Of a DNA stretch of 64,000 nucleotides, positions 5,748 to 44,599 are shown one piece after another. The notes beneath the pieces are model-generated. The model was given only the letters and a program-made list of their open reading frames with translations, made no database searches and was not told where the DNA came from. The position numbers and the translations under genes were made by a program. Within the stretch, counting starts at the first letter, position 1. Each line of letters begins with the position of its first letter. Origin of the DNA: Nitrosococcus halophilus Nc 4 (GTDB lineage: Bacteria; Pseudomonadota; Gammaproteobacteria; Nitrosococcales; Nitrosococcaceae); the NCBI RefSeq assembly GCF_000024725.1, contig NC_013960.1, forward strand, positions 3,830,001 to 3,894,000, given 5' to 3'.

Positions 5748-6218
5748 ATGAAAATTAGATCCCTTACCGCTGCGATGGTCCTGGGTATATTCTTTGTCGG
5801 CTGTGCTAGCACTACAGGGGAAAAAGAATCCATCGGCACGGTTCTTGGCGCCGCAGGCGGGGGACTTCTAGGCTCACAGTTTGGTTCAGGAAGCGGGCAA
5901 CTGGCAGCCACAGCCGCGGGTACCCTACTGGGCGCTCTAGTGGGAAGCAACATTGGCCGCACCATGGACGATGTTGATCGCATGAAGGCCCGTCAAGCCC
6001 TAGAGCAAGCCACCCATGCTCCTATTGGAGAAACCATTACCTGGAATAATCCTCGCAGTGGACACCAGGGCTCGGTAACGCCAGTACGTGATGGGCGCTC
6101 CAGCGCTGGCAATTATTGCCGGGAATTCCAACAGACAGTGACCATCGACGGCAGGAGTGAGCAGCTCTATGGGACAGCCTGCCGACAACCGGATGGAAGC
6201 TGGAAACTGATCCAATAA
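5748..6218 (+). CDS. Glycine-zipper lipoprotein (outer membrane surface-antigen type)
   Basis: Predicted 156-aa lipoprotein. The N-terminal signal ends in a lipobox, GCA, with Cys19. Residues 28-68 hold a glycine-rich pair of hydrophobic helices (GTVLGAAGGGLLGSQFG and GTLLGALVGSNIG), the glycine-zipper 2TM pattern. The C-terminal part (about 85-156) carries the surface-antigen fold signature with CREFQQTVTIDG and GTACRQPDGSWK, similar in layout to SlyB/17-kDa antigen relatives. Function is unknown; such proteins are usually structural or stress-related outer membrane components. It follows trxA by 58 bp on the same strand. Confidence 0.85.
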   Translation: MKIRSLTAAMVLGIFFVGCASTTGEKESIGTVLGAAGGGLLGSQFGSGSGQLAATAAGTLLGALVGSNIGRTMDDVDRMKARQALEQATHAPIGETITWNNPRSGHQGSVTPVRDGRSSAGNYCREFQQTVTIDGRSEQLYGTACRQPDGSWKLIQ

Positions 6219-37137: not shown

Positions 37138-38496
37138 ATGGCTAATGTGTCCTCCAACCCAAAATCTGCGCAAGATATCTACACCATATCACGCTTAGTG
37201 CGTGAAGCCCGTTACGTCCTGGAAAGGAACTTTCCCCTACTTTGGGTTGCAGGGGAAATATCCAACTTATCGCAGCCCTCCTCTGGGCATATTTACTTTA
37301 CGCTTAAGGACAAAACAGCCCAGGTACGCTGCGCCATGTTTCGCAATCGCAACCGTCTACTGGGATTTTCCCTTGAGGATGGGATGCAAGTATTGGCGCG
37401 GGCTCAAGTGGGCCTCTATGAAACCCGGGGCGAATTCCAGCTCATAGTTGAGTACCTGGAAGAAGCAGGGGACGGGGCCCTGCGGCGAGCCTTTGAAGAA
37501 CTCAAGCAGAAACTCTCCGCAGAAGGACTATTTGCCCCTGAACATAAACGCCCCCTACCCACTCTACCCAGACAAGTGGGGGTCATCACCTCCCCTTCTG
37601 GCGCCGCCATCCAGGATATCCTAAGCGTTCTTAAACGGCGCTTCCCGGCAATCCCCGTCCTTATTTATCCCACCCCCGTCCAAGGGGAAGGAGCATCCCA
37701 GAAAATCGCTGCAGCTATTGCCAAGGCCGAGCAACGCTGCGATTGCGATCTCCTGATCCTGGCTCGGGGTGGCGGCTCCCTGGAAGATCTATGGGCCTTC
37801 AATAACGAAACGCTAGCGCGCACTATCTACAACTGCACCCTTCCCATAATCTGTGGCGTCGGCCATGAAATAGACTTCACCATTGCCGATTTTGCCGCCG
37901 ATCAACGAGCGCCCACGCCCTCGGCAGCAGCGGAAATAGCAGTTCCCGACAGCCGTGAATGGTGCCAACACTTCCTGAATCTAGAACAACGGCTTGGCTT
38001 TTTATTCCAGCAGCGTTTACAACACTTACGGCACTCACTCGAGGGCCTAACCCAACGCCTCCGCCACCCCCATACTCGATTGCAAGAGTGGGCCCAACGG
38101 GTAGATGAATTAGAACAACGCCTTCATCGAGCCTATACCACCCTGGAGAGAGAACGGTTCCACCGGCTTGAAAGACTGCTGACCCACTTGCAAAGATTAA
38201 GCCCAGCACAGCGTTTAGAAGTTTACCACTCGCGCTTAGTGGATTTAGACCGGCGTCTTCAGGCCTCCCAACAGCAACACTTAGAGCAGCAACGGATGCG
38301 GTTTGAGATGGCGCAACGGGCCCTTCAAGCGGTAAGCCCCCAGGCCACATTAGAGCGAGGGTACGCCATCGTCACTGGGCCCCAGGGGGTCGTGCTACGT
38401 AAAGCCAGTCAGGTTGAGCCTGGGGCGAGGATTGAAGCCCGCTTAGCAAGGGGCCGCATTCGTGGTGAGATTACAGAAATTCTGGATGAATCGTAG
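37138..38496 (+). CDS. xseA: Exodeoxyribonuclease VII large subunit
   Basis: Single-strand DNA exonuclease subunit. The N-terminal OB fold includes LWVAGEISNLSQPSSGHIYF and VRCAMFRN. The catalytic domain contains the VGVITSPSGAAIQDILSVLK and LARGGGSLEDLWAFN segments and GHEIDFTIADFAADQRAPTP. A long coiled coil fills about 275-400, and the C-terminus has the LERGYAIVTG strand. 452 aa is normal. The start is ATG directly after an AT-rich promoter region. Confidence 0.96.
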   Translation: MANVSSNPKSAQDIYTISRLVREARYVLERNFPLLWVAGEISNLSQPSSGHIYFTLKDKTAQVRCAMFRNRNRLLGFSLEDGMQVLARAQVGLYETRGEFQLIVEYLEEAGDGALRRAFEELKQKLSAEGLFAPEHKRPLPTLPRQVGVITSPSGAAIQDILSVLKRRFPAIPVLIYPTPVQGEGASQKIAAAIAKAEQRCDCDLLILARGGGSLEDLWAFNNETLARTIYNCTLPIICGVGHEIDFTIADFAADQRAPTPSAAAEIAVPDSREWCQHFLNLEQRLGFLFQQRLQHLRHSLEGLTQRLRHPHTRLQEWAQRVDELEQRLHRAYTTLERERFHRLERLLTHLQRLSPAQRLEVYHSRLVDLDRRLQASQQQHLEQQRMRFEMAQRALQAVSPQATLERGYAIVTGPQGVVLRKASQVEPGARIEARLARGRIRGEITEILDES

Positions 38497-38702: not shown

Positions 38703-38744
38703 AAAAAAACAAAGGGGAGCTTGAGTTGAAATTTCAAGCTCCCC
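38703..38744 (-). terminator. Rho-independent terminator of the small lipoprotein genes
   Basis: Perfect 11-bp arms GGGGAGCTTGA and TCAAGCTCCCC around a 9-nt loop, followed on the minus strand by TTTGTTTTTTT. It lies 160 bp after the second lipoprotein gene. Confidence 0.88.
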
Positions 38745-38905
38745 CGGTCTTAACTTACTACCCGCCACACCTTTTCCACCTGAGGCTACTTAGAGCAAAG
38801 GCTAATTGCTTATCTTGATTAAGATAGAAACTAGCCCCATACAAAAACCCTTTCGTCTTGCCTCTAGCGCAGCTAAGGAGTTCCTGTGTGTAAGGCATGC
38901 AAGCT

Positions 38906-39037
38906 TTAGCGGTTAAACTGCTCGAGGAAGGAGGATTGATCTGGTGCCATATCAGACTTTTCCATCTCGCATCCAACCAATCCTACCGTAAAAGCGACGG
39001 CGCATAGCAATAATAGACCTAATTTCACTGATCTCAT
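38906..39037 (-). CDS. Tiny predicted lipoprotein (43 aa), paralogue B
   Basis: ATG at 39037 preceded by AGGGAGAAAATT, a good ribosome site. The signal reads MRSVKLGLLLLCAVAFTVGL with lipobox VGC (Cys23). The mature part is only 21 residues, polar and acidic, ending in FLEQFNR. The next gene upstream encodes a relative with the same Cys position, the same D-M-x-P-x-x-S core and the same final NR. Such mini-lipoproteins resemble entericidin-like or Lpp-like small envelope proteins in size only; no family is recognised. Confidence 0.75.
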   Translation of the reverse strand: MRSVKLGLLLLCAVAFTVGLVGCEMEKSDMAPDQSSFLEQFNR

Positions 39038-39179
39038 AATTTTCTCCCTATATGCTTACTCAATACTTGAAATTTAGCTTTCCCTGCAATCTTTCCCTGT
39101 AATCTTTCCCTATAGTTATATTCTTATCTTCCCTCAGTCGCGGGTGGAACCCCTTATAAAAAGCAGAAACGTATAAACT

Positions 39180-39314
39180 TTAGCGGTTGAGTTGGCTAAA
39201 GGGTGCCGAACTTTCCGGTGACATATCCGCCGGTCCAGATCCAGTACACCCTGCCACCCCTACTGCGAAGGTTAAAGCGCACAGAGCCATTAAACAGCGT
39301 CTTAAAGACTTCAT
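39180..39314 (-). CDS. Tiny predicted lipoprotein (44 aa), paralogue A
   Basis: ATG at 39314 with GGGAGAGAGCTT upstream. The signal MKSLRRCLMALCALTFAVGV ends in lipobox AGC (Cys23); the 22-residue mature part contains DMSPESSAPF and ends QLNR. It is the upstream member of a tandem pair with the gene at 38906-39037; signal length, Cys position and C-terminal motif agree, so they are paralogues from a duplication. Function unknown. Confidence 0.75.
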   Translation of the reverse strand: MKSLRRCLMALCALTFAVGVAGCTGSGPADMSPESSAPFSQLNR

Positions 39315-39517
39315 AAGCTCTCTCCCTTTTGTGATTAGACTGAGGTTTATGACTTCCTGTAATACAACAGTTAAGTTCCCTCAAGAAAATATTTAGCAAA
39401 ATTTTGAGAAAAAGCAAGGTCTTTTTAGTAAAAACCTTATTGGGATAAAGGGGAAAGCTTCCCTAATTGGTCTCGGGCTTGAGCTTCTCAGGCCTGGGAT
39501 GGCTAAATTTCTCAACC

Positions 39518-40831
39518 CTATCCGGATACTTTTTGCTTTTGGAGGAGCTGCAGATGTTTGATCCACTGGGTAGCCCGTTTGGCATATTCCGGTGACCGCT
39601 GGGCTACCTCTAGGGCCTGGATGGCCTCAGCCAATTGTCCCTGTTCGTAACGGACTTGTCCCAATAGGAACTGCGCCTGCCCCTTATCCAAACCCCCTTT
39701 GCGCAGCGCCTGCTGCAGGGCAGCGCTGGCCTCATCCCAACGCTGAAGTTCCATAAAGAGCTGGGCCCGGCGTAGATCTGCTTTACCTTTTTGGCTCACT
39801 CGTCCTGCCCTACTTAGGGCCTTAATTCCTTTCTCCCATTCACGAGCGGCAATCCAAGTATTGGCCAAACGCTCCCAGTTCTGGGTGGTGCTTTCAATAG
39901 CCCCTGTATCCAGAGCCTGTTGCAGAATCTGCCCCCCCTTATAGGGAATATCAAGGTAACGATAAAAATCAGAAAGATTGATCAATGCCTGGCCTTCAAG
40001 ATGCCCCATTTTTTCCGCCAAGGCTTGCACTGCCAATGCCCGCTTATCTTCCTTGATTTCCGAATATACAGCGGCCAGCTGTTTCCAGTAACGCTCATTT
40101 TCAGGATGCAATTCGATCAGAGTTTCCAACACCTGGGTAGCCTGCGAGTATTGCTTTAATTCCAGGCGCGCTGCCAGATGCAGTTGATACCAAGACTCTT
40201 GGGGTTCTTCAGCAAGCTCAATGGCTGCCATGATAGGAGGGATCACTTTGGCGTACTGCTCTAAATGATAGTAGGCACTAGCCGCCAACAGGTGGGCTTC
40301 CGGGGGAGGCGCTTCCGCTTCCTTTAGCCACGCCTCTAGAAACTTGGTCCCTTCTCCATATTGCTCCGTGGCGATATAAAGCTGGGCTAGACTGTAGCGC
40401 AGATCACGGTCGACCTCTGCCGGCAGCGCATCCAGGGCCAGACTAGTCTTGAAGGCTTGGATCGCCCTGGGGTAATCCTCTACCGAGGAGTAAACATACC
40501 CGAGAGTTTGCAAAACCATGGCCTCTTCATAGGCCTTCTGTTCACCTGAACCCTTAACCCGCTTTTGGAGCACCGTCAGTTTTTCTATGGCCTTCCGGTA
40601 CTGCTGCTGGTCCATAAGTTCATGGGCCGCCGTTAGTGCCTCATAAGTAGGGGGAGATAGTAAATAGGGAGCAGCCGCCTGGACGCCCGAGCATAACAGT
40701 GAGACAGCCCAAATAGCACTACCCAAAAACCAGCCCTGAAACCGACCCCGGTCCCCTATTGCTAAGTCAGCCGGCCCCTTTTCCAGCCAGGGACTCAAAT
40801 GAAAGCATTGGATCACAGCTTGCCTATTCAT
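39518..40831 (-). CDS. TPR protein of the TonB2-type operon
   Basis: 437 aa with an N-terminal membrane/signal segment (FLGSAIWAVSLLCSGVQAAA, about 35-54) and a periplasmic array of tetratricopeptide repeats through the rest (for example QTLGYVYSSVEDYPRAIQAF and AQFLLGQVRYEQGQLAEAIQ). It overlaps tonB by 4 bp (ATGA) and is the last gene of the six-gene operon. TPR proteins are found at this place in Vibrio-type TonB2 clusters; it probably supports energy transfer or receptor specificity, which is inference. Confidence 0.85.
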   Translation of the reverse strand: MNRQAVIQCFHLSPWLEKGPADLAIGDRGRFQGWFLGSAIWAVSLLCSGVQAAAPYLLSPPTYEALTAAHELMDQQQYRKAIEKLTVLQKRVKGSGEQKAYEEAMVLQTLGYVYSSVEDYPRAIQAFKTSLALDALPAEVDRDLRYSLAQLYIATEQYGEGTKFLEAWLKEAEAPPPEAHLLAASAYYHLEQYAKVIPPIMAAIELAEEPQESWYQLHLAARLELKQYSQATQVLETLIELHPENERYWKQLAAVYSEIKEDKRALAVQALAEKMGHLEGQALINLSDFYRYLDIPYKGGQILQQALDTGAIESTTQNWERLANTWIAAREWEKGIKALSRAGRVSQKGKADLRRAQLFMELQRWDEASAALQQALRKGGLDKGQAQFLLGQVRYEQGQLAEAIQALEVAQRSPEYAKRATQWIKHLQLLQKQKVSG

Positions 40832-41902: not shown

Positions 41903-42427
41903 TTACTCCCGCCGCAGCAGATCTCTTGCGTGCTGGATAGCTCGCTGGGCTCGATGTTCCAAGTTAGCGCTAAAGTAGAGACCCGACAAAGCCGTCACTA
42001 ACCCCGCCATCGTCGTAATCAAAGCCACGGAAATCCCCCCCGCAAACCCGCGAACGTTGCCGGTACCAAACACTGTCATCACATCAAACACCTGGATCAT
42101 TCCAATCACAGTACCGAGCAGGCCCAACATGGGCAGTACGGCCGTCAGGGTTTTAATGGGCAATAGAAACTTGCGCAGGTTCTGGGAAAGCTCGGCAATC
42201 ATCCCCTCTCGAATACGCTGCGCCTGCCAGGAATAACGTTCCTGGCGCTGTTGCCAATGGTCGATCAAACGTTGCAACTGTGAAGGGTAAACGACCAACA
42301 TAAAATAATAACGCTCAATAATCAGCACCCACATCAAGACCGAAGCCACCAGAATGACCCAGAGAACGCCCCCGCCTCTTTCCAACAGGAGTTCAATCTG
42401 AAACAGGTTGTCCGTCAGTGCGCCCAT
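41903..42427 (-). CDS. exbB: ExbB-family proton channel protein (ExbB2 type)
   Basis: ATG at 42427 (MGALTDNLFQIELLLERGGG) gives 174 aa; the longer frame overlaps the preceding gene. Three membrane segments are visible, with the MotA/TolQ/ExbB core IKTLTAVLPMLGLLGTVIGM and GISVALITTMAGLVTALSGL. It overlaps the long ExbB by 35 bp. It is the plain ExbB2 partner of the TonB2 complex. Confidence 0.93.
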   Translation of the reverse strand: MGALTDNLFQIELLLERGGGVLWVILVASVLMWVLIIERYYFMLVVYPSQLQRLIDHWQQRQERYSWQAQRIREGMIAELSQNLRKFLLPIKTLTAVLPMLGLLGTVIGMIQVFDVMTVFGTGNVRGFAGGISVALITTMAGLVTALSGLYFSANLEHRAQRAIQHARDLLRRE

Positions 42428-43826
42428 TCTGCTTCTCCGCTCGCTGCGCCACAATGGCGGCACTCTCCTCATCCAGCACTTGCACCAGCCGATTGCTCTT
42501 ACTGGAAAGCCCGCTGTGGATCAGCAAGATGGGGATAGCCACCGACAAGCCCAGCTCGGTAGTTACCAGGGCCTCAGAAATCCCGCCCGACATGAGCTTA
42601 GGATCGCCCGTGCCAAAGAGGGTGATCGACTGGAAGGTCTCAATCATGCCAGTGACGGTACCCAACAGCCCGAGCAAGGGTGGAATGGCAGCCAAAATGG
42701 CTAGGGTGGGCAGTCCTCGCTCCAAACGGGGTATTTCTTTGAGGATGGCCTCATCAAGCTTGAGATGAAGTGTTTCCACATCTTGGCCATTATCCTTGTA
42801 AACCCCCAGGATGCGACCCAGGGGGTTATTGTCCTGTGGCGTCTCCTGTTGTCGCTGGCGATGGATGCGGCGGCCGATGATTTGCAAATAAATAAACCGC
42901 TGCAACGCAATCAGCAAAGCGATTGCCCCTAGGCCCAAAATTAAATAACCAATCCACCCCCCCTGCTGGATATGCTCTTGCAAGTTAGGTTTCTGGACGA
43001 ATAGTGCGAGGATAGCGCCACGGCTGGGATCTACCGCCATCGGCACCACCTCGTCTCTTTCTGCCTTTTCAAATTCAGCGGCCGCTTCGAGAAAGCGGGA
43101 GGGGGGCTGCCGACTAAGCTCCACGAGCCCGTTAATCGGCTCAGAGAGATACCGCAGGTAGGTGCCCTCGGAGATTGCCGTGAAGGTACCGATTCGGGAA
43201 ACTTGTCGCTCTTCGACTTCTCCTCCTGCAATGATCACTGGGGCCGAGAAAGTCACTACTTTCCCCGATTCCGTCATCTGCTCCTGCAAACTCAACCACA
43301 ATTGCTGCAGCTCATCAATGGTAGGTAACTGCTTACGTTCCGCAATGGTTTCCAGCACCTCAGTGCGCCCCGAAAGCTGGGCCGAAACCAAGGAATTATT
43401 AATAATATGCAACAGATCATGGGCGCTCTGTCGGGCTACGCCAAAAAGCTCTCCCAGAGAAGCCGAGCGTTCCTTAAGGGCAGCTTCCTTTTCAGCGAGG
43501 GTCTTCTCATTCTGCTCAAAAATCCGCTTAAGCTTTTCTTCCCGTTTTTGCGCCGCCGCCAACTCGGCCTTGGCCTTATTAAGCAGATTTTTTTGCTGGT
43601 CTCGGGCGGAGAGAAAGCGAGCTTCTCGCTCTGCATTCAGCTTGCGTTCTTGAATGCTATCTTGTCGAACCTGTTCCAGAAGCTGATCCAAGGTTTCCGG
43701 GGTATTCGCACCCCAAGAGCCCATAGGCACGCCTAACACTATGATCCCAATAAGGGTAGCGACTCCCTTAGCTTTTAGAAATAAATGCCTATCCCCGGAC
43801 AGCATGCCAAGCTTGATAGCCCTCAT
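42393..43826 (-). CDS. Long MotA/TolQ/ExbB protein (TtpC-like)
   Basis: ATG at 43826 (MRAIKLGML) overlaps the DUF3450 stop (ATGA); the longer open frame upstream is rejected. 477 aa: signal-like helix near 20-40, a long periplasmic coiled coil (about 50-140, rich in ExKLKxxxxQNEKTLAEKE-type heptads), a second periplasmic domain, then the channel domain with PPLLGLLGTVTGMIETFQSI and ALVTTELGLSVAIPILLIHS. This fusion layout matches TtpC of the Vibrio TonB2 system, where it is needed together with the short ExbB. Confidence 0.9.
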   Translation of the reverse strand: MRAIKLGMLSGDRHLFLKAKGVATLIGIIVLGVPMGSWGANTPETLDQLLEQVRQDSIQERKLNAEREARFLSARDQQKNLLNKAKAELAAAQKREEKLKRIFEQNEKTLAEKEAALKERSASLGELFGVARQSAHDLLHIINNSLVSAQLSGRTEVLETIAERKQLPTIDELQQLWLSLQEQMTESGKVVTFSAPVIIAGGEVEERQVSRIGTFTAISEGTYLRYLSEPINGLVELSRQPPSRFLEAAAEFEKAERDEVVPMAVDPSRGAILALFVQKPNLQEHIQQGGWIGYLILGLGAIALLIALQRFIYLQIIGRRIHRQRQQETPQDNNPLGRILGVYKDNGQDVETLHLKLDEAILKEIPRLERGLPTLAILAAIPPLLGLLGTVTGMIETFQSITLFGTGDPKLMSGGISEALVTTELGLSVAIPILLIHSGLSSKSNRLVQVLDEESAAIVAQRAEKQNGRTDGQPVSD

Positions 43827-44599
43827 TGCACAGTCTCCGGCGCCCGTATAGGCAGCAATAATAAGTCCGGGGGAGCCTGCTTGCGGGCAATACGCAGACC
43901 CTGGGTAACTGCAGAGCGATATCGATCGGGGAGGATCGACCAACGCTGCTTATGGACATCCCAACGGCCACAGGTCTTGCCATCCAGGGTATGAAAAAAC
44001 AAGGCTGTCCGTCCTATGCGAAGAAAATCCACGGTACGAGATTTGCCTTCCATTGCTAAAGTGCCTCGATAGGCTTCAATGGTACGCCCATATTCCACTT
44101 CTACCTGGAAGGCCTCGACCACACGCCGGTATTTCTCCGACAACCCCACATCAGCCCGGTCCATCAGGGCCTTGAGCTGCTGAATGCGAGTCTGGCGCTC
44201 CTGGGGAAGAAAAGGAATGTCCAAGGCCACAAACTGCTCCAGTGATGAAACCATGCGCAACATCAGGGGCACGATTTCCCGCTGGGTCACCTCAATCTCC
44301 GAAAGCTGCTGCTGGAGGGAGGTAAATTCTTCCTTTTGGGAACGAATGAGTTTCCCTAATTGGCGATTATAGGTACGAAGACTATCAAGCTGGGCAGTGA
44401 CTTGACGATATTCCGCTAGCAGTTCTGTCGTTTCCTCTGACAGGGCATCAATCTTATCCTGGGATTTCGCCGCAGCCTGATCCGTCTTGACCTGAGTATC
44501 AATAGCCGCTTCCAATGAAGCCGCCATGGTCCCCATCCCATACACAGCACTCAGGGCTAAAAATGCACAGAACCCTATTTTAACCATCCTCTGTGGCAT
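43823..44599 (-). CDS. DUF3450 periplasmic coiled-coil protein
   Basis: First gene of the TonB2-type operon. ATG at 44599 (MPQRMVKIGFCAFLALSAVY) gives 258 aa with a signal peptide (cleavage near AAS at 25-27). A coiled coil spans about 40-115 (KIDALSEETTELLAEYRQVT), and the C-terminal half has WDVHKQRWSILPDRYRSAVT, typical of DUF3450. A GTG 30 bp upstream is an alternative start. DUF3450 genes routinely precede ttpC-exbB2-exbD2-tonB2; the job is unknown. Confidence 0.85.
   Translation of the reverse strand: MPQRMVKIGFCAFLALSAVYGMGTMAASLEAAIDTQVKTDQAAAKSQDKIDALSEETTELLAEYRQVTAQLDSLRTYNRQLGKLIRSQKEEFTSLQQQLSEIEVTQREIVPLMLRMVSSLEQFVALDIPFLPQERQTRIQQLKALMDRADVGLSEKYRRVVEAFQVEVEYGRTIEAYRGTLAMEGKSRTVDFLRIGRTALFFHTLDGKTCGRWDVHKQRWSILPDRYRSAVTQGLRIARKQAPPDLLLLPIRAPETVQ

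Follow-up and report, generated by a model that had tools for sequence, protein, structure and literature searches.

A tandem pair of tiny predicted lipoprotein genes under purifying selection in the genus Nitrosococcus

Two adjacent reverse-strand genes of Nitrosococcus halophilus Nc 4, named slpA and slpB here, encode predicted lipoproteins of 44 and 43 aa. Their reading frames are under purifying selection, and they belong to a duplicated family that, as far as it could be searched, appears to be restricted to the genus Nitrosococcus. Both lie in the window, the 64,000-nt stretch that we analyzed (positions 3,830,001–3,894,000 of a 4,079,427-base contig): slpA at 39180..39314 (−), with the product MKSLRRCLMALCALTFAVGVAG/CTGSGPADMSPESSAPFSQLNR, and slpB at 38906..39037 (−), with the product MRSVKLGLLLLCAVAFTVGLVG/CEMEKSDMAPDQSSFLEQFNR. 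Each starts with ATG and has the ribosome site GGGAGA a few nucleotides upstream (AAAGGGAGAGAGCTT-ATG for slpA and TATAGGGAGAAAATT-ATG for slpB). Both products show the features of a type II signal peptide, namely a positively charged N-end, a hydrophobic stretch and a lipobox ending in Cys (VAGC in slpA, LVGC in slpB; Cys23 in each). The mature parts are acidic, with a D-M-S-P core and a QLNR end in slpA and a D-M-A-P core and a QFNR end in slpB. The original prediction had described two ORFs at these positions with a lipobox Cys23, a shared D-M-x-P core, N-R ends and good ribosome sites, and the sequence agreed with all of it. Aligned on their own, the mature parts gave a z-score of 5.5, and none of 3000 shuffles was as alike; the likeness of the two proteins therefore goes beyond a common signal peptide. 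AlphaFold, run with two sequences, predicted the signal helix plus a short helix of low confidence near the C-terminus (residues 35–42, pLDDT 62–66), and no solved structure matched either protein.

We screened the window strictly for tiny lipoproteins, requiring a ribosome site, a charged N-end, an unbroken hydrophobic stretch, a lipobox and a length of 30–70 aa; slpA and slpB were returned and nothing else. On 40 random sequences with the dinucleotide make-up of the window, the same screen yielded a mean of 0.025 hits per window, which places the observed number at 80 times the chance frequency.

We then compared four Nitrosococcus genomes, that is, the source genome (G000), G002, G003 and G004. 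In all four, the family sits at the identical place, between a same-strand TonB2-type operon and the convergent xseA gene. Two copies are present at this locus in G000 and G003, whereas G002 and G004 have one, which is nearer to slpB; slpB thus has orthologues in G003, G004 and G002, and the slpA orthologue of G003 is 86% identical. Between G000 and G003, slpA has accumulated 9.5 synonymous and 7.5 nonsynonymous changes (Ka/Ks 0.21; synonymous excess, P = 0.003), and slpB 18 and 5, respectively (Ka/Ks 0.04; P = 4e-10), showing that both frames are under purifying selection. Between G002 and G004, a single synonymous base differs within the ORF, whereas the immediate flanks contain many changes and insertions, one of them large. 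In an alignment of six members, the invariant positions included G22, C23, D29, M30, P32 and R43. The original prediction had named two outcomes that would speak against it, missing conservation of the frames in relatives and a synonymous/nonsynonymous ratio near one; the frames were found in each of the four Nitrosococcus genomes, and both ratios were far from one. These data also bear on the reading that slpA and slpB arose as ORFs by chance or are left over from a longer gene. The frames are indeed very short and confined to one genus, but their conservation in four genomes, the Ka/Ks values well below 1, the outcome of the random screen, the intact starts and ribosome sites, and a covarying terminator (see below) led us to reject this explanation as extremely improbable.

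The features around the two genes point to a single transcription unit. Directly before slpA, a block of about 105 nt that includes the slpA ribosome site (39315..39419 (−)) is 97.1% identical between G000 and G003, compared with 87% for slpA itself, 85–88% for the TPR, tonB and xseA genes and 73% for the spacer, and its core is still recognizable in G002 and G004. The block presumably comprises the promoter plus a leader. It contains no good match to a standard sigma-70 promoter, and its motif did not occur elsewhere in the genus with up to three mismatches allowed, so that no regulon can be deduced from it. The slpA–slpB spacer (39038..39179 (−)) holds the slpB ribosome site. No terminator was seen in it, which makes one common transcript, and hence co-transcription of slpA and slpB, likely. 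Within the spacer, CTTTCCCTGYAAT forms three imperfect direct repeats (39077–39113); G003 does not keep all three.

Downstream of slpB, we found an intrinsic terminator with an 11-bp stem followed by TTTGTTTTTTT (about 38703..38745 (−)). Its fold has a predicted energy of −24.1 kcal/mol (z = −3.38), and it is missed by a standard terminator scan because its loop is 9 nt long. In five homologous copies, 98% of the stem cells were paired, with compensatory changes on both sides at 5 of the 11 pairs and a covariation score that no shuffle reached. One strong terminator shared by both genes, as originally proposed, is therefore present, about 160 nt beyond slpB and the interval first described. 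A search of the region against Rfam gave no structured-RNA match.

Relatives were sought well beyond the genus. In 63 genomes from the order and 369 from the class, profile searching revealed no full-length relative outside Nitrosococcus; the weak matches obtained there were signal peptides of unrelated proteins or due to chance. Scans for sequence patterns in about 85,000 species genomes likewise gave zero confirmed relatives outside the genus, and searches of plasmids and phages found none (matches on Haloferax and Paracoccus plasmids and to a phage spanin were taken as noise at the level of the signal peptide). Neither protein matched any Pfam model, even at an E-value of 10. In NCBIfam, the sole match was that of slpB to the Acinetobacter lipoprotein family NF038215; the score of 12.8 bits is far below the cut-off of 33, and the likeness covers the signal peptide plus lipobox (residues 8–28), so slpB is not a member. 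We found no paper on these genes in the literature. Since queries of 43 aa limit the power of such searches, very diverged relatives could have escaped detection, and the confinement of the family to Nitrosococcus applies as far as these searches reach. The original suggestion of an unrecognized small envelope family thus holds for a duplicated family with orthologues in four genomes, low Ka/Ks, a third copy and no entry in Pfam or NCBIfam; the profile, pattern and family-library searches gave it no reach beyond the genus.

The third member of the source genome lies elsewhere, at C2:2695881 (L021:5882-6016), and ends in ...GCELPQSDMSPNPDKLGNAGKRE. It has lost the F-x-Q-x-N-R end, so that either this end is not indispensable or the copy is decaying. 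Its flanks are fragments that, in other genomes of the genus, also occur at the end of and inside a transposase gene (340–376 aa) that we read as ISAs1-type. Downstream of this copy, next to an ISAs1-type fragment, is LVGCGHPSNDGREDMVSDKPEESTFFGS (L021:6152-6243; G000 C2 about 2696151-2696242), a stretch that, judged by its sequence, is possibly a decayed fourth copy. G002 in turn has a shortened copy (L022 about 6030-6205) in which about the first 12 codons are gone, while the frame, core, ribosome site and following terminator are kept. The third copy and the shortened one indicate that the family has been copied and lost inside the genus.

The position of the locus raises the question of a functional link to its neighbors. 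The operon upstream of slpA consists of genes for a DUF3450 protein (PF11932; 43823..44629 (−), L023:11824-12630) in a TtpB2-like position, a large TtpC-like protein with a MotA/ExbB domain (42393..43943 (−), L023:10394-11944; start codon uncertain), an ExbB-type protein of 189 aa (PF01618; 41903..42472 (−), L023:9904-10473), ExbD (PF02472; 41487..41897 (−)), TonB (PF03544; 40828..41490 (−)) and, as the last gene, a TPR protein (39518..40831 (−)) that carries Pfam TPR matches and resembles TtpD2 in position and size. On the other side is xseA, encoding the exonuclease VII large subunit (37138..38496 (+); PF02601, E = 1e-114). The genes of the operon are arranged as in the TonB2 system of Vibrio (PMC6957404); known TonB2-type systems, however, come without a tiny lipoprotein, and the pairing with one is seen in this genus alone. 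One could imagine slpA and slpB as accessory subunits of this system, for example as lipid-anchored adaptors of the TPR protein. Consistent with such a role, a lipoprotein gene lies on the same strand directly downstream of the ttpD-like TPR gene in 4/4 genomes of the genus, and there is a precedent in Vibrio, where ttpB2 and ttpD2 are essential parts of the TonB2 system but were recognized late (PMC6957404). Against it, a tiny lipoprotein of this kind is missing just downstream of the TPR gene in all 26 other gammaproteobacterial genomes that have this gene, and the two other genera of the taxonomic family in which the TPR gene is kept (G001 and G005) likewise lack an adjoining one; across these lineages, co-occurrence with the TonB2-type operon was thus not observed. 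Moreover, the TPR gene and slpA are parted by a 200-nt gap with its own conserved 5′ block, and the third copy does not lie near a TonB operon. We therefore regard a role in the TonB2-type system as unlikely. Its more specific form, a genus-specific TonB2-type adaptor of ammonia-oxidizing bacteria that was duplicated, its two copies serving the outer and the inner membrane, respectively, seems more improbable still.

Known tiny lipoproteins offer other readings. Entericidins come to mind because ecnA and ecnB likewise lie in tandem and encode lipoproteins of some 40 residues, and slpA and slpB resemble this pair in size, tandem layout and lipobox. They might accordingly be abundant, stress-type small lipoproteins that act on envelope stability or vesicles and have no dedicated partner. 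Their acidic mature parts count against this idea, as does the lack of a match to any Pfam model; membership in Entericidin A/B (PF08085) was rejected, the model being unmatched and the mature sequence different. We consider an entericidin-like function doubtful, if somewhat less so than a link to TonB2. LptM (formerly YifL) is likewise a tiny lipoprotein of the outer-membrane type in which the lipobox is followed by a short tail, and this tail is poorly conserved outside Enterobacteriaceae (PMC10567701). Both points would fit slpA and slpB as divergent LptM orthologues assisting maturation of the LPS translocon. LptM differs, however, in its GQKGPLY motif and in having its own locus, and a clear LptM with CGQKGPLYLP is encoded at another place of this genome, immediately ahead of a gene that we read as lysA (C2:3965610; 36.1 bits, above the cut-off). 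As slpA and slpB did not match the LptM_cons model (PF13627) at an E-value of 10 and the true LptM is at a separate place, we discarded membership in this family and find orthology scarcely credible. An Rz1-like o-spanin was also dismissed: the match was weak (E = 0.013, residues 5–36), and the neighbors are housekeeping genes and not a phage lysis context.

Our preferred interpretation, to which we give about an even chance of being correct, is that slpA and slpB are duplicates transcribed as one unit and encode tiny envelope lipoproteins whose tail docks on a larger partner in an LptM-like manner. Transcription would begin within the conserved block that directly precedes slpA and stop at the conserved terminator. 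We infer that both genes are expressed and that their products would pass through Sec, receive a lipid on Cys23 and be cleaved, so that an acidic peptide of ∼20 residues stays tethered in the envelope by its lipid anchor. The working part would be the conserved D-M-[AS]-P turn together with the F-x-Q-[LF]-N-R end. By analogy with LptM, which docks on LptDE (PMC10567701), the proteins would be neither enzymes nor structural proteins; the tail peptide would instead dock on a larger envelope partner. As for membrane location, slpA (C-T-G) is predicted to reach the outer membrane, while slpB-type members, with E or D at +2, may be partly kept in the inner membrane if the +2 rules of E. coli hold. 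Going by these residues, the two copies may be split between the membranes.

As they appear to be confined to one genus, these genes are of limited general importance. They nevertheless constitute a protein family of about 43 residues outside Pfam and NCBIfam, for which the evidence of selection is strong enough to warrant annotation. As the precedent of LptM illustrates, lipoproteins of such size have proved to be genuine parts of envelope machines, which makes a tiny lipoprotein in ammonia-oxidizing bacteria a reasonable target.
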